Shown here: one piece after another, positions 3,330-43,051 of the stretch
How the letters are laid out: each line of letters opens with the position of its first letter
Numbering within the stretch: the stretch's first letter is position 1
IMG/VR virus record: IMGVR_UViG_3300042402_005680
Span: 1 to 62,550 of that record
Source of the DNA: a virus
Strand: one strand, 5' to 3'
Length of the DNA: 62,550 nt
Made by a program: the position numbers and the translations under genes
Notes under the pieces: generated by a model
The model's database searches: none
What the model saw: the letters and a program-made list of their open reading frames with translations, nothing else
Told to the model about the DNA's origin: nothing

Positions 3330-4337
3330 TTAGTTACCTGAGATGACTTGAAGTTGTACGTCAGCGCGCATTTCATCACTGAGAGCTACGAGACCACGCT
3401 CAGAAAGGTATCCGTCTTTTGAGAGCGCAGCATCACTCATATACTCTTCAATGAACTCTTGCAGACCGGGAATAACTCCACGATGTGCGTTCTTGACGTA
3501 GAAGTAGAGCGGGCGAGAGATAGGATACGACCCATCACCGATGCTATCAAGGCTAGGCTCTACACCGTCGATGTTAACACCCTTGAGCTTGTCAAGGTTT
3601 TCATAGAGAAATGAGTAGCCAAAGATTCCCAGAGCGTTGACATCTGCTTCGAGACGCTGAACGATAAGATTGTCATTCTCGCCGGCTTCAACAAACGCAC
3701 CGTCCTGTCTCATGCCCGAACAGTTCTCAGCAATCCAGTCCTTATCAAATTTGCCTTCTACAACATGCGGCAACTTAGCACAACCGGCATGCATTGCAAG
3801 TTCTACAAAGGCGTCACGTGTTCCTGAAGTAGGAGGCGGACCATAAACTAAAATAGGATTTGCAGGCAAAGCTGCATTAATCTCGTTCCAAGTTTTATAT
3901 GGATTTGCAACCCACTCTCCGTTTACCGGAACTTGTGCTGCCAGTGCAAGATAAACTTCTTCAAGTGTAAGATCCCAGTTAAAGTCGTTTGCTCTAGAAC
4001 CACTAATTGACAGTCCGTCATATCCAATCAGCGCTTCTGAAATATCAGTTACACCGTTTTGTGTGCAGAGTTCGGTTTCTGAACTTTTGATTGCTCTGCT
4101 GGCTCCGGTAAGATCAGGGGTATCTTGGCCAATGCCTTTGCAAAACTCTTTAAAACCACCGCCAGTTCCAGTGGACTCGACGATAGGGGCTGTATATCCA
4201 AGATTAGAGAAGTTTTCTGCTACGGCTTGGGTATAAGGAAATACGGTGCTAGATCCAACGATACGAATCTGGTCTCTAGCGTATGCAGTGCCGGCAATCA
4301 TGATTGAGGCAGCTGTAAGGGCTACTAGTGTTTTCAT
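3330..4337 (-). CDS. pstS: Periplasmic phosphate-binding protein PstS
   Basis: 335 residues with signal peptide (first 20). The mature chain begins DQIRIVGSSTVFPYT, the phosphate-binding loop of the PstS family. It also has ESTGTGGGFKEFCKG, ASRAI, and GPPPTSGTRDAF, which is the second phosphate-binding loop (SGT-R). Full length for the family. It binds inorganic phosphate in the periplasm and would deliver it to the host PstCAB transporter. Phage-borne pstS genes are known from marine cyanophages, where host PhoB regulates them. Here a Pho-box-like element (4391-4410) precedes the gene. A terminator follows. Confidence 0.95.
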   Translation of the reverse strand: MKTLVALTAASIMIAGTAYARDQIRIVGSSTVFPYTQAVAENFSNLGYTAPIVESTGTGGGFKEFCKGIGQDTPDLTGASRAIKSSETELCTQNGVTDISEALIGYDGLSISGSRANDFNWDLTLEEVYLALAAQVPVNGEWVANPYKTWNEINAALPANPILVYGPPPTSGTRDAFVELAMHAGCAKLPHVVEGKFDKDWIAENCSGMRQDGAFVEAGENDNLIVQRLEADVNALGIFGYSFLYENLDKLKGVNIDGVEPSLDSIGDGSYPISRPLYFYVKNAHRGVIPGLQEFIEEYMSDAALSKDGYLSERGLVALSDEMRADVQLQVISGN

Positions 4338-6370: not shown

Positions 6371-6389
6371 TTTATTCCTCTAAGTGCCC

Positions 6390-6681
6390 CACTTCTGTTG
6401 CTAGGCAGGGGCCTCCCCCTTACATTAGGCTGCTAGAGCCTGTGCAGAAGGTGCAAAGTTATCGTTTGCAGTTGTTGGTTTCTTGCGGTTACAGTCGCTT
6501 GCGCACTGGCTCCTAGTTTCCTTTTTCACACCTGTCGATCCCATTTCGGCCCCATCAAAGATACACTGTCATTACCACCATGCTCCCCCGCTTTACAGGG
6601 GCTATGTCTGTTCAGTTTATCTATGGTGGAGCCGTCGGCTTCGAAGCCGAGTCCAGCCTGTGTCTGATTTACGTCATCAGA
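6390..6681 (-). ncRNA. ssrA: Transfer-messenger RNA, circularly permuted two-piece type
   Basis: Reading the minus strand, an acceptor piece comes first. It has a T-arm-like TCGGC-TTCGAA-GCCGA, then CGGCTCC and ACCA ending at 6624. After about 70 bases holding a CCCC/GGGG hairpin, the coding piece begins at 6553 with GGGGCCG, which pairs with CGGCTCC to rebuild a 7-bp acceptor stem. It continues with ATGGGATCGACAGG, the usual tmRNA 5' sequence. Near 6470-6428 it carries a tag frame encoding ANDNFAPSAQALAA followed by TAA. The acceptor-first order is that of alphaproteobacterial permuted ssrA. The product rescues stalled ribosomes and tags nascent chains for proteolysis. Ends are approximate. 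Confidence 0.9.
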
Positions 6682-7322
6682 GCTTGTACTTTTTCTTTTT
6701 GCAGTAATTCTGAGTGCATACCTTGATGTATTTCTCTGTGGCAATTAGCACACACGATTATACATTTGAGTAGCTCTTCCATTAAAATATGTTTTTCTGA
6801 GTGCCTCAAGTCAGATATTTTATACTCTTTTTTATCGGGGTCAAGATGATGAAAATCTAGTGCTGCTTTACATCTATCATACCCGCATATTTTACAAGAA
6901 TAGTAACCCAATATTTTTAAAACAATCTCATATTTTTTAGTAGCTTCATTAGTAGCTATGCACTGGCGACAATGTGCTCTGTAAAGTCTTTTTCCGTTAC
7001 GGCTATGACCCGCGGTATAAAAACTGTCAAGAGGGAGTTCTTTTTTACAAGTGTTGCAGGTTTTTAAAGTATCAACCTCTACACCTAATATAGTTTTACG
7101 ATACTGTTTCATAAAGTACGTGTTAAACGACGTAGCCACCGACTTATCAGACGGTTTTCCAAATATAGCTATAAGACCTCTACTAACTGCTTTACTGTCA
7201 ATTTTATCTATTAAATAAGTACTAGGAGAGACATCTGTTTGTAGCACTGCTTCTAATACTAATTCATAATTTTTTACATCTTTACGTTTAACTTTAGATA
7301 GCACAAATTCTTCATATGTCAT
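6669..7322 (-). CDS. HNH endonuclease with zinc-ribbon modules
   Basis: 217 residues. A first CNTCKKELPLDSF zinc knuckle and HCRQC pair are followed by CKICGYDRCKAALDFHHLDP and CANCHREIHQG, which together make an HNH/treble-clef nuclease. Its stop codon lies inside the 5' end of the tmRNA gene, so it looks like a mobile nuclease lodged against the tmRNA. It has its own promoter at 7340-7368. A/T content is higher than that of its neighbours. Confidence 0.88.
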   Translation of the reverse strand: MTYEEFVLSKVKRKDVKNYELVLEAVLQTDVSPSTYLIDKIDSKAVSRGLIAIFGKPSDKSVATSFNTYFMKQYRKTILGVEVDTLKTCNTCKKELPLDSFYTAGHSRNGKRLYRAHCRQCIATNEATKKYEIVLKILGYYSCKICGYDRCKAALDFHHLDPDKKEYKISDLRHSEKHILMEELLKCIIVCANCHREIHQGMHSELLQKEKVQALMT

Positions 7323-7730: not shown

Positions 7731-7912
7731 TAGACGCTCCTGTTAATTGTCACAATCTCGTGCTCTTCAATCGTTGTTATCACATGTCCGTAGTCACTCT
7801 CAAAGCTATGCTCTAATTCATCAATCATTTGATCGAGTTCATCAGGGTCGAGCCGATCTTCGGTTTCAAGCTTTAAGATGACGGTCATTGCGACTGTATG
7901 TTTATAACTCAT
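7730..7912 (-). CDS. Hypothetical protein, 60 aa
   Basis: Very acidic middle (EDRLDPDELDQMIDELEHSF) flanked by beta strands. Overlaps both neighbours by 1-4 bases. Family not recognised. Confidence 0.5.
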   Translation of the reverse strand: MSYKHTVAMTVILKLETEDRLDPDELDQMIDELEHSFESDYGHVITTIEEHEIVTINRSV

Positions 7913-9159
7913 TGTAATGTTCTCCTATGTTCTTCTAGTTCTTTCAGCAGCGTGCCGAGTCTCCAATTTTCGCTCATGTCTACAGGCTCTAGTGTAAAAA
8001 ACTCACTAGAGATAGCGTGCTTGATGCAGTTCCGGGTGAATGCCAGAGGATATCGAACGCCTGAAGCATTCATGCCCGTGTTGACTAAGTAGACATTACA
8101 ACGGTGCTGCTGTATTCGGTTCATCAGCAGGTTGCTATACTCGTGAATAGGACGCGGCATAAACGGCGAGCCATAGCACGGTGAGAACACCTTTTTGACT
8201 TCGCGCAATCCAGCTTCTGTGCCCGGCATTAGGCTGGTATAGCCGGTCTCGAACAGCAAGCGGATAGTCTCACCGCGCACCTGACTAATCGGAGGAAGGA
8301 TGCCCTCTGCATCCATTGCAAGAAAGAAGATGTTGTGAGGGCTTTTAAAGGCAAATGGTGTGTGCGCATACGCGTTTTCGACCATCTTCAGCGGATAGCT
8401 CAATCGAGCATTTGCCTCGTCGGGATTTTCAACTACAAGACAACCTTCGCTCCTAGCCAGTTCGACAGCATTGAAGATAGTCGGATGCGTCTCAGGTGAC
8501 AGCCCCTCGCTCTTGGCATAGCAACCGGACTCGACCATATGTATTCCATTGTCGCTCCAGTACACCTCGTCGTCGCTAATCAATTGAAAATCTGGGTCAG
8601 AGCTCAGAGTCGTCTTACCAGTTCCACTAAGACCGAACATCAGGTTGTTCTGTCCGTTATAGGTAAACGCACTACAGTGCATTGGTAAAGTGTTACGACG
8701 AGGCAGTTCGAAACCGAGGATGCCGAACACGCCCTTCTTGATTTCACCTAAGTAGGTTGTACCAGCAATCAGCATCTCTCGAGCATCAAGATGAACGTAG
8801 ATGCGTGGATGAGGAACTTCAACCTTCACACTATGAATGATTACCCAGTCTACCTGGTCGAAAGGAGCTGGGTAATCATAAGAAAGAACACTAAACATAT
8901 TACGAACAAACTGAGCATGAACGTCGCTGTCTGTCAATACTAGAAAAAGGATTCCACCGCTGTAGAAATATAGACGATGCGGGTATGCGTCTGAAATAGG
9001 AATACCCATCTTTAGACGGAGAGCAGTAAACTGCCCTTCTGTGCCGACCTTACAGTACTGCGGTCGATGAGTACAGAGCTCTCGCGTCGCCTCTCCAAAG
9101 AAGACTTTGTGTTCTGGACTACGACCAGAGGGAACGGTTGTTATGTTATAGTTAGGCAT
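7909..9159 (-). CDS. pckA: ATP-type phosphoenolpyruvate carboxykinase-like protein, short form
   Basis: 416 residues from the ATG at 9159, which has an AAGGAAC ribosome site; a GTG at 9177 is the alternative. The PckA signature elements are present in order: YLGEIKKGVFG (metal-binding Lys), LPMHCSAF (metal-binding His), P-loop GLSGTGKTTLS, and LISDDEVYW (metal-binding Asp). The ribosomal PEPCKs are about 530 residues; here roughly 110 N-terminal residues, which contribute to the substrate site, are missing or replaced. The family converts oxaloacetate and ATP to PEP, CO2 and ADP. Whether this short form keeps that activity is open. Confidence 0.85.
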   Translation of the reverse strand: MPNYNITTVPSGRSPEHKVFFGEATRELCTHRPQYCKVGTEGQFTALRLKMGIPISDAYPHRLYFYSGGILFLVLTDSDVHAQFVRNMFSVLSYDYPAPFDQVDWVIIHSVKVEVPHPRIYVHLDAREMLIAGTTYLGEIKKGVFGILGFELPRRNTLPMHCSAFTYNGQNNLMFGLSGTGKTTLSSDPDFQLISDDEVYWSDNGIHMVESGCYAKSEGLSPETHPTIFNAVELARSEGCLVVENPDEANARLSYPLKMVENAYAHTPFAFKSPHNIFFLAMDAEGILPPISQVRGETIRLLFETGYTSLMPGTEAGLREVKKVFSPCYGSPFMPRPIHEYSNLLMNRIQQHRCNVYLVNTGMNASGVRYPLAFTRNCIKHAISSEFFTLEPVDMSENWRLGTLLKELEEHRRTLQ

Positions 9160-9376
9160 TGCGATGTTCCTTCGCACGCTGTTCTAGCAGCGCAATAATT
9201 TCTTGTGCAAGAGTCCAGTTCGGAACTCCGCAGTATTCAGGAACCTTATAGCGATCTAGTGTCACTATAAGGTCCTGTAGTAGTTGGTGACGACTACGCA
9301 CGATTGTCTTGCCAACTATCGAGATACCGAATCTTTTGTTCTGTGGTCCAGCCTCGAAGATAGGAGTTATCTTCAT
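9152..9376 (-). CDS. Hypothetical protein, 74 aa
   Basis: ATG at 9376. Basic N-terminal half (IVGKTIVRSRHQLLQDLIV) and helical C terminus. Overlaps pckA by 8 bases and the previous gene by about 80 bases. No recognised motif. Confidence 0.45.
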   Translation of the reverse strand: MKITPIFEAGPQNKRFGISIVGKTIVRSRHQLLQDLIVTLDRYKVPEYCGVPNWTLAQEIIALLEQRAKEHRNA

Positions 9377-10887: not shown

Positions 10888-11982
10888 TTACTGAGGAATA
10901 TCACCCTGAATACCTTCTACATAAAAGTTCATGCTTAGTAGGTCACCATCAGGAGCAGTCACACCATCCTCTAGCCAGACCGAGCCATCTTGACGGCGAA
11001 TCGGACCTGTAAAGGGATGGTAGGTACCGGCAGCAATCGCATCACGTAGAGCTTCCGCTTCTGCCTTCACATCCGCAGGCACTACGTCTGTAATAACGCC
11101 AATCTCAACCTCGCCTTCACGAATTCCAGCCCAGGTGTCTGTAGAGGTCCAAGTTCCCTCAAGTACTTCTCCTACTCGCTTAACATAGTAAGGAGCCCAG
11201 TTATCGATGATAGAAGAAATGCGAGGGCTTGGAGCATAGTCAAGCATGTCAGATGCTTGTCCAAATCCTAGTACTGCTTCTCCAGCCTTAGCAGCTTCTG
11301 CAAGTGGAGCTGTAGAATCAGTATGTGAAGCAATAATGTCTACACCTTGGTCAATGAGTGCTCTAGCTGCATCAGCTTCTTTAGCAGGGTCAAACCAAGT
11401 GAATGCCCACACTACAGACAGCTCAACGTCTGGATTTACTCGCTTTGCGTGTAGGTAGTAGGCGTTAATGCCCATAACTACTTCGGGAATTGGGAAAGAA
11501 GCAATATATCCAATCTTATTAGTTTTGGTTAGTCGACCTGCCATAGTTCCTTGTACGGCACGCCCTTCATAGAATCGAGCATTGTAGATTGCAACATTCT
11601 CATGGTCACGCTTATAGCCGGTTGCGTGCTCAAAGCGTACATCTGGAAATTGAGCCGCTACAGTATTAGTAGCATCCATATATCCGAATGAAGTGGTAAA
11701 GATAATATTACAGCCTGACAAGGCCATTTGAGTTAAAACTCGTTCGGCATCAGCTCCTTCTGGAACACTCTCCTGCCACGCAATCTCAACTCGGTCACCA
11801 TACGCCTCTTTAACAGCAAGAGCGCCTTGGTGATGTTGGTAGGACCAACCTAAGTCTCCAATCGGACCTACATACACAAAACAGGCTTTAGCCTTTTCTA
11901 GGGGTTGTGCAGCAGCTGCACTAGTAAACATACCGAGACTCATAGCAGCCGCGGCCAATAGACTATTAGACAAAAATTTCAA
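10888..11982 (-). CDS. BMP-family (PnrA/Med-like) periplasmic solute-binding protein
   Basis: 364 residues. Signal peptide about 1-24, then KACFVYVGPIGDLGWSYQHH, the BMP-family N terminus (VGPxxDxGW). Further family features: DAERVLTQMALSGCNIIFTT, YFHATGY-like FEHATGYKR, GRLTKTNKIGYIASFPIPEV and ALIDQGVDIIASHTDS. These proteins bind nucleosides or related molecules in the periplasm and feed an ABC importer. No permease or ATPase genes follow, so like PstS it would work with a host transporter. The composition is more G+C-rich and bacterial-like than its neighbours, which suggests capture from a host. It is bracketed by terminators and may be expressed by read-through from the ncRNA region. 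Confidence 0.9.
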   Translation of the reverse strand: MKFLSNSLLAAAAMSLGMFTSAAAAQPLEKAKACFVYVGPIGDLGWSYQHHQGALAVKEAYGDRVEIAWQESVPEGADAERVLTQMALSGCNIIFTTSFGYMDATNTVAAQFPDVRFEHATGYKRDHENVAIYNARFYEGRAVQGTMAGRLTKTNKIGYIASFPIPEVVMGINAYYLHAKRVNPDVELSVVWAFTWFDPAKEADAARALIDQGVDIIASHTDSTAPLAEAAKAGEAVLGFGQASDMLDYAPSPRISSIIDNWAPYYVKRVGEVLEGTWTSTDTWAGIREGEVEIGVITDVVPADVKAEAEALRDAIAAGTYHPFTGPIRRQDGSVWLEDGVTAPDGDLLSMNFYVEGIQGDIPQ

Positions 11983-30285: not shown

Positions 30286-31397
30286 AAGGAATTTTAAAAA
30301 CATTAGCAATTATGATTACAATGGCTTGGGCTACGGTAGCGCAGGCCGGTATATTAGATGGTAAGTTTGGTACAGGTCAAATGTTTGACGTCCAGTACTA
30401 CTGGAGCGGAAACGATTTAGTTGCCAGTAGCTTCACGCGAGTGTTCTCTAGCACAGGCCAGTTAACTGTGCAGGACTATACAGATATGGATGCGAATAAT
30501 AGATACTTTGCATTTTTTAACTCAACTACACATCCAGGTGAGTACGGATTGGCTGTATATAATAGCGATGGTACAGTGAATAGAACACTTCATACTAGAG
30601 GAACTATTACTGCGATAGGTAATGATGCTATCTTTTATCTAGGCAGCGGATTTTATGGTACCGTGATACCGACAACTCAAGGATACGCTTTTGGAGACAG
30701 TGCTACGTTTACAGGGATGAACCAGTCGCCCACAGCCAGTGAGATAAGCAACTATAATGCAGGTACCACACCTCTTGCACCTGGTCAAAGCGGTGGTGGT
30801 GGGCCTACCCCCGTCTACATAAGTTCAATTACTACAGCTCAAACTACTACAAAAACTGCTGCTCTTGCAACTACTACAGGCAATAACGCTAACATTACTA
30901 TACTAGGAAACGATAACGAAGTGGATATTAGACAGTTAACAAATGGTAATTATTTAGATCTCAGTATAGACGGAGACGAGAATATTGTAGACATAGAACA
31001 AACTAGCACTACTCTAGCAAGACACTTCGCTGAGATAGATTTAATAGGAGATAATAACGAGTACACTATGCTACAAAGCGGAACTGCTAAAACAGCTTTT
31101 ATCTCTTCTGACGGCAATGAGAATATACTTAGCATTATCCAAAAAGACGGTGGAGAACACTACCTTAGCCTAAACAATATTGGAAATGAAGCTGAGATTA
31201 CAATTTTACAAGAGGGTGCAGGAAATCATAGTGCAACTCTAGAGCTTGAGAATGGCGGCGGAAACTGGGTATTTAACCTAACACAAAGTGGAGCTACTAA
31301 CTACTTATATAGCTTACCGCATAACCTTACCGACAATACAGTAGTTACGGGAATCTGTTATACTGGCACTTGTAGTATGACGATTGTACAACAATGA
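30282..31397 (+). CDS. Large curlin-repeat protein, 371 aa
   Basis: Signal peptide (first 22), a non-repeat domain to about residue 190 with aromatic strands, a Gly-rich linker (QSGGGGPTP), then five or six curlin repeats: ITILGNDNEVDIRQL, LSIDGDENIVDIEQT, NEYTMLQSGTAK, ENILSIIQKDGGEHYL, EAEITILQEGAGNHSATLEL and FNLTQSG. A single C-terminal Cys pair matches that of the smaller protein. Longer than CsgA (151 aa); the N-terminal domain may be an anchor or adhesin. Overlaps fecR by 4 bases. Confidence 0.83.
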   Translation: MKGILKTLAIMITMAWATVAQAGILDGKFGTGQMFDVQYYWSGNDLVASSFTRVFSSTGQLTVQDYTDMDANNRYFAFFNSTTHPGEYGLAVYNSDGTVNRTLHTRGTITAIGNDAIFYLGSGFYGTVIPTTQGYAFGDSATFTGMNQSPTASEISNYNAGTTPLAPGQSGGGGPTPVYISSITTAQTTTKTAALATTTGNNANITILGNDNEVDIRQLTNGNYLDLSIDGDENIVDIEQTSTTLARHFAEIDLIGDNNEYTMLQSGTAKTAFISSDGNENILSIIQKDGGEHYLSLNNIGNEAEITILQEGAGNHSATLELENGGGNWVFNLTQSGATNYLYSLPHNLTDNTVVTGICYTGTCSMTIVQQ

Positions 31398-31732
31398 ATT
31401 TTTTACTTAGTTTAGCTACTACTATGCATTTAGGTTTTGAGGGTGAGTACAATAGTATTCACCCTCATACTCGTTTTGAGAGTAATGATTATGCTATTGG
31501 TGCTTACTTAAACAGTGAAAATAATATTAGCCCTTACATCTCGTACAGCCTAAAAATGCAATCTTATAGTTTAGAATTAGGTTTAGTAGGAGGATATAAC
31601 ATTCCTGCAGTTCCCTTACTACGTTTAGGCAAATCTCTCTCTAAAGACGTAGATATTTTTATTACGCCAGGATTTGAGAATAACACAGAAAACCCCAAAA
31701 TAGTTTTGGGACTTGAATTTACATTGAGGTAA
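31394..31732 (+). CDS. Outer-membrane-like beta protein, 112 aa
   Basis: Alternating hydrophobic strands with HLGFEGEYNSIHPHTRFE, AIGAYLNSENNISPYISYSL and LELGLVGGYNIPAVPLLRLG. The terminal LGLEFTLR could be a barrel end. This family occurs in other phages and bacteria near surface-polymer genes. No clear signal peptide beyond a weak hydrophobic start. Not CsgE by sequence. Confidence 0.6.
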   Translation: MNFLLSLATTMHLGFEGEYNSIHPHTRFESNDYAIGAYLNSENNISPYISYSLKMQSYSLELGLVGGYNIPAVPLLRLGKSLSKDVDIFITPGFENNTENPKIVLGLEFTLR

Positions 31733-31734
31733 AG

Positions 31735-33768
31735 ATGATACAAAAAATACTAACCAGCGCCATTTGGAGTATCGTTACTCTAGCATTAATGGTCGGAATA
31801 GCCTATCTGAATCCGTCATTTATTGAAAGCGTAAAACTCCGATATTTTGACACTCTAATTACGTCAACTCCCAAAATAGAAAATAATATCTATACCGTAA
31901 ACATAGATGAAGCAGCTATTGAACAGTACGGTCAGTGGCCTTGGTCAAGAGATATATATGCCAATATTATAGAAGAACTTTACGCTAGAGAAGCTGGTTT
32001 AGTAGTTTGGAATATATTAATGTCCGAATACGACAGAAGCGGTAAAGATTCTTACTTAGGGGATACTTTAGCGCAGTATCCGGTAATACTAAATATACTA
32101 GGTGCAGAAGAATCTAAAAATTCTGCAATAAATCCCGGGGCTGCAATAATTAATTCTGAGTACCAAGATTTAATACTCTCCTATCCAGGAATTATTGCAA
32201 ATATTCCTGAGTTAGAAAACCTAGCTTCGGGTAGTGGTATTGTTAATACGCTACCAGAAATTGACGGGGTCACACGTCGTGTGCCGATGGTAATCTCCAG
32301 TGGGGGCACTCTGTATCCTAACCTTACTCTAGAAACACTTCGAGTTCTTGCTGGAGACCCAAGTTTTCAGATTAAGCTTTCTCCCCTTGGAGTTGACCGA
32401 CTGCGTATTCCTCAGTTTGGAGAAATACCAACTGACGAACTCGGACGCGTATGGGTCGATTGGAGTCAAAGTAGTAAAAGTGTTTCTCTCACTAATCTTC
32501 CTGATAGTTTTGGAGGTGCGATAGTTTATATAGCGCCCACTGCAGCAGGATTAAATAATCCTATTGCAACTGCTGCTGGAGGTGTTTGGCCTCATGAATT
32601 GCAGGCTGCACTTCTAGGTACAGTTTTTAATCAGAGTAATATTGAGCGTCCCGCTTGGGCATCAGGCGCAGAACTAATTTCATTAGTACTCGGGGGTATT
32701 CTCTTAATCTTCTCAGCACGCTGGACCTATTTAGGATTAGGAGTTTTTGTACTACTGCTTGCTAGCACTGTAGGCGGTAGCTGGTATGTTTTTGTGGAAT
32801 ATAAGTGGCTACTCGATGGTGTTACGCTTACGGCATCGTTCATTCTAATCGGTCTTGTACGATATGCTGTGAAGTTTATTTCAGAGTACCTACAAAAGTT
32901 AAAAATTAAAAAGCAGTTTGGCGGATATGTCTCTCCGCTTGTCATTGAACAGTTACAAAAAAACCCCGAGCTTGTCAGCCGGGGCATTAAACGCGATGTT
33001 TCTATTGTAATGACAGACTTACGAGGTTTTACACCACTAGGAGAGTCATATGGGGATGACGTCCACGGTCTCACACAGATTATGAATGACTATATGACTG
33101 CTATTTCACAACCTGTACTTGACGATGGAGGCACTATTATCAAGTATATTGGCGATGCAACTCTACACATTCATGGAGCGCCTCTCACTGATGAGCATCA
33201 TGCAAAGCACGCCGTTGCAACTACGTTGCGAATGATTAAAGCGGTCGAAGAGTTTAACACTGAGCTAGATGCTATCGGTAAACCACGAGTAGCAATGGGA
33301 GCAGGTATCAATACTGGCCCTGCTGTTATTGGCAATATCGGTTCTAAGACTCGATTTGGGTATGATATACTAGGAGATAGTGTTTCTACCGCGGCTCGAT
33401 TAGAGGGTCAGAGCAAGCCCTACGGAGTCAAGATTGTTATTGGTGAGAGCACCGCAGAGCTAGTACGAGATGACTATATCTTATTAGAACTCGATAAAAT
33501 TGCGGTAAAAGGCAAGACAATTGGACTACGCATGTATACCGTAGTTGCTGAAGGTAGTCCTGAAGCTGTTCAAAAGCACGAAGAGATGTTACAGCTCTAT
33601 CGCGCACGTGAGTTTAGCAAAGCTAGTGTCGCGTGTGTGCTGCTCAAAAATGAGTTTGGCGGTGAAATGCGTGACTACTATAAAATGTGGATGTCTCGCT
33701 GTGAAGAAATGCGAAACTCTAGTCTTCCCGAAGACTGGGATGGAATTTATCGAGCCACTTCTAAATAG
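31735..33768 (+). CDS. CHASE2-domain class III adenylate cyclase, membrane-bound
   Basis: 677 residues. A membrane helix at 8-26, then an extracytoplasmic CHASE2 sensor (about 30-310, with NIYTVNIDEAAIEQYGQWPW), then three membrane helices (about 312-385), then a class III cyclase domain from about 420. Catalytic metal residues are in VMTDLRGFTPLG and YIGDATLHIHG; substrate and transition-state segments in GYDILGDSVSTAARLEGQSK. The C-terminal helical part has MLQLYRAREFSKA. Full-length for the chromosomal family. It makes cAMP (or cGMP) in response to a periplasmic signal. The stop is followed directly by a convergent tRNA gene. Confidence 0.92.
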   Translation: MIQKILTSAIWSIVTLALMVGIAYLNPSFIESVKLRYFDTLITSTPKIENNIYTVNIDEAAIEQYGQWPWSRDIYANIIEELYAREAGLVVWNILMSEYDRSGKDSYLGDTLAQYPVILNILGAEESKNSAINPGAAIINSEYQDLILSYPGIIANIPELENLASGSGIVNTLPEIDGVTRRVPMVISSGGTLYPNLTLETLRVLAGDPSFQIKLSPLGVDRLRIPQFGEIPTDELGRVWVDWSQSSKSVSLTNLPDSFGGAIVYIAPTAAGLNNPIATAAGGVWPHELQAALLGTVFNQSNIERPAWASGAELISLVLGGILLIFSARWTYLGLGVFVLLLASTVGGSWYVFVEYKWLLDGVTLTASFILIGLVRYAVKFISEYLQKLKIKKQFGGYVSPLVIEQLQKNPELVSRGIKRDVSIVMTDLRGFTPLGESYGDDVHGLTQIMNDYMTAISQPVLDDGGTIIKYIGDATLHIHGAPLTDEHHAKHAVATTLRMIKAVEEFNTELDAIGKPRVAMGAGINTGPAVIGNIGSKTRFGYDILGDSVSTAARLEGQSKPYGVKIVIGESTAELVRDDYILLELDKIAVKGKTIGLRMYTVVAEGSPEAVQKHEEMLQLYRAREFSKASVACVLLKNEFGGEMRDYYKMWMSRCEEMRNSSLPEDWDGIYRATSK

Positions 33769-42976: not shown

Positions 42977-43051
42977 TGGTAGGAGCATAAGGAATTGAAC
43001 CTCATCTTTAAGCGTTATGAGCGCCACGTGCAACCTTCACACCCTACTCCC
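42977..43051 (-). tRNA. tRNA with CAT anticodon (Ile2- or Met-type)
   Basis: Anticodon loop CTCATAA, T arm GAGG-TTCAATT-CCTT, CCA encoded. The acceptor GGGAGTA/TGCTCCT contains wobbles and the D arm is odd. It is the third CAT tRNA after the initiator-like and elongator-like ones, so an AUA-reading Ile2 (lysidine) role is plausible. Confidence 0.75.

Follow-up and report, generated by a model that had tools for sequence, protein, structure and literature searches.

Does the minus strand around positions 6383-6730 of the IMG/VR virus record IMGVR_UViG_3300042402_005680 (positions 1 to 62,550, hereafter the window) encode a genuine circularly permuted tmRNA, and what could a phage gain from carrying one? 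The initial annotation had proposed a permuted, two-piece tmRNA in a phage, naming no strand. The Rfam model tmRNA_permuted (RF04321, cut-off 47) matches the minus strand at 6425-6684 over its full length (model positions 1-213) with 104.5 bits (E 2.6e-19). The alpha_tmRNA model, which had been suggested as a check (RF01849, cut-off 50), matches the same strand at 6383-6730 with 71.4 bits (E 1.7e-17). These two matches above cut-off, together with the order of the pieces, bear out the proposal. Judging from its sequence, this locus (minus strand 6383-6730, core 6425-6684) harbours a circularly permuted tmRNA (ssrA) gene in intact form. ARAGORN, the usual tool and the other check that had been suggested, called no tmRNA in the window, and the short T-loop of the gene (6 nt, see below) is the likely cause of this miss. 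Because ARAGORN was also silent at 13 of 40 other phage loci called tmRNA by Rfam, such genes are overlooked and the phage tmRNA counts in print are probably low.

The phage that carries the gene is large and has a curli module. Phage-type genes of the window include those for an endolysin, a NAD ligase, PhoH and a DUF2828 protein, the latter being common in T4-like phages. Beside them lies a curli (type VIII secretion) module (27339-33768) encoding CsgF, CsgG, a FecR protein, a curlin-repeat protein and a CHASE2-adenylate cyclase, which matches descriptions from pelagiphages. The curli module and its adenylate cyclase move between phage families (PMC9599517). The tmRNA gene is housed in a same-strand gene run. 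No annotated phage gave a DNA match to window positions 1-25000, and no plasmid matched the tmRNA. ARAGORN counts 27 tRNA genes in the window; a further one at 42980-43051, which it missed, was detected by Rfam (40.7 bits), giving 28. Genes of metabolic or transport type were also noticed near the tmRNA, namely those for a PBP-like binding protein (3330-4337), an ATP-type PEP carboxykinase (7909-9177) and a PnrA-like binding protein (10888-11982). A conserved position of the tmRNA beside a phosphoesterase gene was considered and rejected, as the two lie more than 20 kb apart in G026 and G038, large phages that have both.

Read 5' to 3' on the minus strand, the gene consists of an acceptor piece, an intervening segment and a coding piece. 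The acceptor piece (6624-6684, within the RF04321 match) contains the 3' strand of helix 2 (GCUCU, 6683-6679, paired with GGAGC at 6513-6509), a T arm with a 5-bp stem and a 6-nt loop (UCGGC-UUCGAA-GCCGA, 6635-6650), the 3' strand of the acceptor stem (CGGCUCC, 6628-6634) and an encoded ACCA (6627-6624). It is followed by an intervening segment of 70 nt (6554-6623), expected to be removed on maturation, whose ends form an imperfect helix with 9 of 12 positions paired. The coding, mRNA-like piece (6383-6553, within the RF01849 match at 6383-6730) opens with the 5' strand of the acceptor stem (GGGGCCG, 6547-6553, G1 at 6553), with the D region AAAUGGGAUCGAC on its 3' side. A PK1-like region (6485-6508 in the RF04321 alignment) has a CAGU/ACUG stem and possibly a second helix, GCG/CGC, read by eye. 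Near the 3' end, the motif at 6393-6401 agrees with the alpha_tmRNA consensus GCAACAGAA. With the ACCA ending at 6624 and the coding piece starting at 6553, the acceptor piece does precede the coding piece as initially described. The acceptor stem said to be re-formed by CGGCTCC and GGGGCCG is restored with seven of seven pairs, at probabilities of 0.967-1.0 when the two pieces were co-folded unconstrained, and includes the alanine-identity pair G3:U70 (G at 6551, U at 6630). The RNA is predicted to fold in the permuted arrangement, with RF04321 matched from end to end, and no sequence part of a permuted tmRNA is missing or fails to pair as expected.

The tag frame (6425-6469, minus strand) begins with a GCA resume codon at 6469 and runs for 14 open codons to an ALAA end and a UAA stop (6427-6425), the same UAA at which the RF04321 model ends. 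It encodes ANDNFAPSAQALAA, exactly as first read. The accompanying remark that this tag is longer than most holds against the tmRNA database, in which 79 unique phage sequences are listed and the commonest tag length is 10 aa (PMC11915505); it does not hold among related alpha-type phage tmRNAs, where 14 aa is usual. A search of 84,980 bacterial and archaeal species genomes with the tag pattern, which fixes the spacing and was run there without a positive control, gave no match. The phage may set its own degradation tag, as had been suggested.

For comparison, permuted tmRNAs were extracted from six isolate phages (Rhodobacter phage RcXuper, the roseobacter phages vB_RpoS-V10, DSS3_MAL1 and RpAliso, Phaeobacter phage MD18 and Erythrobacter phage XM05) and from IMG/VR contigs, in which dozens more turned up. 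A 7-pair acceptor stem with G3:U70 occurs in every extracted phage tmRNA, a result that is partly selected, since extraction required at least 6 pairs. Two other tests are independent of this selection. The helix that joins the ends of the intervening segment, between CCA and G1, has 91% of its cells paired across 35 distinct phage tmRNAs, with many pair types, compared with 59% (SD 2.6%, maximum 68% in 2000 trials) when the 3' halves are re-dealt; shared ancestry inflates this comparison but, in our judgement, not by that much. The second test uses the tertiary pair 18-55 of the tRNA elbow, whose two residues switch in step: 20 distinct phage tmRNAs combine G18 with U55, 19 combine A18 with G55, and one, with an 8-nt loop, is ambiguous. 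With G18 and U55, the window has a self-consistent elbow even though its T-loop is one base short. The usual, non-defining 7-nt T-loop is replaced in the window by the 6-nt UUCGAA, in which UUCGA itself is kept. T-loop sequence varies widely among the phage members and most alpha-type relatives have GGC(G/A)GUA, unlike the window, yet no 6-nt loop was found among the other distinct phage tmRNAs extracted. Such a loop could weaken SmpB binding or charging.

Taken together, we consider it very probable that the window carries a complete permuted alpha-type ssrA gene whose product works as a tmRNA with host AlaRS and SmpB, keeping ribosomes free during infection and adding an LAA-type degron of the phage's choosing. 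By analogy with known tmRNAs, a single precursor would be cut at the ACCA and at G1 by host tRNA-processing enzymes, and the acceptor stem and helix 2 would keep the two resulting RNAs joined. Host AlaRS would charge the molecule with alanine through G3:U70, and host SmpB and EF-Tu would bring it to ribosomes that have stalled on broken mRNAs. The ribosome would then move to the tag frame, append ANDNFAPSAQALAA and terminate. As the ALAA end resembles a Clp-type degron, the tagged product should be passed to the Clp protease of the host. For a lytic phage faced with many broken mRNAs, the likely gain would be the recycling of ribosomes, so that these and amino acids are available during mRNA degradation, with a tag independent of that of the host. 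Since no SmpB gene was found in any of the 38 virus records searched (the window, itself a fragment, and 37 others), this function would presumably depend on host SmpB.

Other readings of the locus have to be weighed against a working tmRNA. The silence of ARAGORN might be taken as a sign of a chance match or an artefact of the covariance models, but the E-values given above were obtained for the whole window with two models, and the tag and the order of the pieces were read independently; the probability of an artefact is negligible in our view. It is also unlikely, if less so, that the RNA is a tmRNA-derived decoy, which would fold and perhaps be charged while mainly titrating SmpB or disturbing host trans-translation. 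There is a precedent in the RNA of phage DS6A, which has only a tRNA-like domain and acts in this way in E. coli (PMC4131195, PMC11915505), and the odd 6-nt T-loop of the window would be compatible with such a role. However, in DS6A the tag part of the RNA is missing, whereas the window keeps it whole, with tag frame, stop, PK1-like stem and the GCAACAGAA motif at the 3' end, which makes a decoy less likely. Nor would a decoy need the protein-level conservation seen in the long tags of other phages, described below.

A host tmRNA gene acquired by chance and carried as an unused passenger is very unlikely as well. It would be consistent with the restricted occurrence of the exact sequence, found only in the window and in two other contigs, whose identical copies carry no rate information. 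Against it, every structural element is intact and the gene sits within the same-strand run. Moreover, permuted tmRNAs above cut-off recur in 34 of the 78 contigs that share the cyclase of the window, indicating that phages keep such genes, and the absence of the tag pattern from the species genomes scanned argues against a gene recently copied from a host in that set.

The suggestion that a permuted tmRNA points to an alphaproteobacterial host has to be divided into ancestry and host. The alpha model gives the window copy 71.4 bits and the beta model, with a cut-off of 84, gives it 46.2 bits. Almost every other alpha-type copy from phages has a higher alpha score (79-160 bits versus 71). In a tree of 43 tmRNAs, all from phages, it falls with moderate support on the side of alphaproteobacterial phages, in the company of tmRNAs from Rhodobacter, Ruegeria, Phaeobacter and Erythrobacter phages. 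These sequence affinities support an alphaproteobacterial descent of the RNA. The identity of the host does not follow from it, because the permuted tmRNAs of cyclase-sharing phages are mostly beta-type and because phage Melnitz has an alpha-type tmRNA and a gammaproteobacterial host (PMC9004378).

Some phages sharing the cyclase have much longer tags, of 21-30 aa, several of which were called independently by ARAGORN (e.g. AEKANTNGVAKVSMGRGFRFGSRTDAAVLA). Tags of 28-30 aa with the core KVSMGRGFRF are encoded by the permuted tmRNAs of L127, L130, L132, L136, L141, L183, L186, L189-L191, L194, L196 and L198, and some of them end in VLA or TFA rather than AA. Within the core, the third codon positions vary at 6 of 10 sites and the first and second positions at 0 of 20. 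The search pattern behind part of this set prescribes the peptide itself, but L127 and L130 were reached via the cyclase gene and already differ from each other at all six variable sites. The core gave no tblastn match in phages, and the idea that it forms the end of a phage protein as well was rejected. Other long tags, of 21-25 aa, occur in L119, L120, L125, L133 and L135 (e.g. AKANTFEFFQVPVSISANDEFALAA and AKANTKFEFYTVDGIFDAIAA). Given the length of these tags and the lack of matches to the window tag among the species genomes, one may speculate that phage tmRNAs are reprogrammed rather than mere copies of those of the host, that their tags have left the bacterial repertoire, and that the phage thereby decides what becomes of unfinished proteins after rescue; we regard this broader proposal as doubtful at present.

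The gene adjoining the tmRNA encodes an HNH endonuclease of 217 aa (6669-7322, minus strand; phrog_2255, E 5.1e-32). It ends within the 5' end of the tmRNA, as had been noted, its stop lying 16 nt inside the RF04321 match. An HNH ORF of 101 aa with a GGAGG ribosome-binding site occurs within the intervening segment of other permuted tmRNAs (L143:1125-1764, and also L144 and L147), nested in the helix that closes this segment. It belongs to the same family as the HNH protein of the window, with 45% identity over 56 residues. L143 and L147 come from G012 and L144 from G015, contigs sharing the cyclase with about 62% identity, and G013 shows this pair of hits too. Homing genes in tmRNA have been reported for group I introns, and permuted intervening segments have been reported with a tRNA gene and a repeat inside (PMC11915505); we found no report in the open-access literature of an HNH gene inside a permuted intervening segment. 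The family is not specific to tmRNA, an idea rejected after seven more distant homologues were located among tRNA genes with no tmRNA in their 2.5-kb flanks. In the window, the gene probably encodes a homing endonuclease of the free-standing type, with a tendency to insert next to genes for tmRNA and tRNA.

Permuted phage tmRNAs have been in print since 2022 (PMC9004378), and the window gene is not novel in kind. The claim that phage tmRNAs are rare stands as a proportion, 402 of 18,146 phage genomes having one, but two-piece forms are already catalogued: they make up 53 of the 133 unique structures, 50 of these 53 being from marine or aquatic phages (PMC9004378). Some huge phages are also known to carry tmRNA, and even SmpB (PMC7162821). 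The window thus adds one more well-formed case, set apart mainly by its shortened T-loop, its own degradation tag and the adjoining nuclease gene. Less ordinary are two by-products of the analysis, an HNH family whose genes adjoin permuted tmRNA genes or lie within them, and the long, protein-conserved tags of cyclase-sharing phages.

Among described systems, Methylophilales phage Melnitz resembles the window in having a permuted alpha-type ssrA in a curli-carrying phage (PMC9004378), as judged from its description. In Melnitz, a glutamine riboswitch is linked to the gene, whereas a gathering-threshold Rfam scan found no riboswitch in the window; the 6-nt T-loop and the overlapping HNH gene also distinguish the window. 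The Ruegeria, Phaeobacter and Rhodobacter phages DSS3_MAL1 (whose record annotates its tmRNA as ssrA), vB_RpoS-V10, MD18 and RcXuper share with the window the GGGGCCG/CGGCTCC stem, the permuted alpha type and 14-aa tags. They differ from it in their T-loop (GGCGGUA with A18, versus UUCGAA with G18 in the window) and in their longer intervening segments (98-111 nt versus 70). Alphaproteobacterial permuted tmRNAs (RF01849) have the same piece order, resume region CUGCAAACGA, GCAACAGAA motif and tag start ANDN, and the window differs from them in its T-loop and in a tag ending absent from the scanned species genomes.

Several other oddities were observed around phage tmRNAs. In three roseobacter phages (L009, L010 and L011), the permuted tmRNA is closely preceded by a GOLLD RNA. 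In Erythrobacter phage XM05 (L012:2536-2982), an annotated HslV-family peptidase gene lies about 0.5 kb downstream of the unannotated permuted tmRNA. ARAGORN calls a tRNA with a CTA anticodon (amber-reading, called tRNA-Pyl) in L119 (2574-2649) and L135 (2712-2786), about 0.8-0.9 kb from the tmRNA, and stop codons may be recoded in these phages. Finally, small and mostly hydrophobic ORFs fill the intervening segments of L016, L020, L025, L125, L190 and L198. Those of L020 and L025 encode related 38-aa peptides, with 28 base differences distributed as 9, 5 and 14 over codon positions 1, 2 and 3, and L023 and L186 have alignable open frames in this segment (score 93, versus a shuffle maximum of 48).
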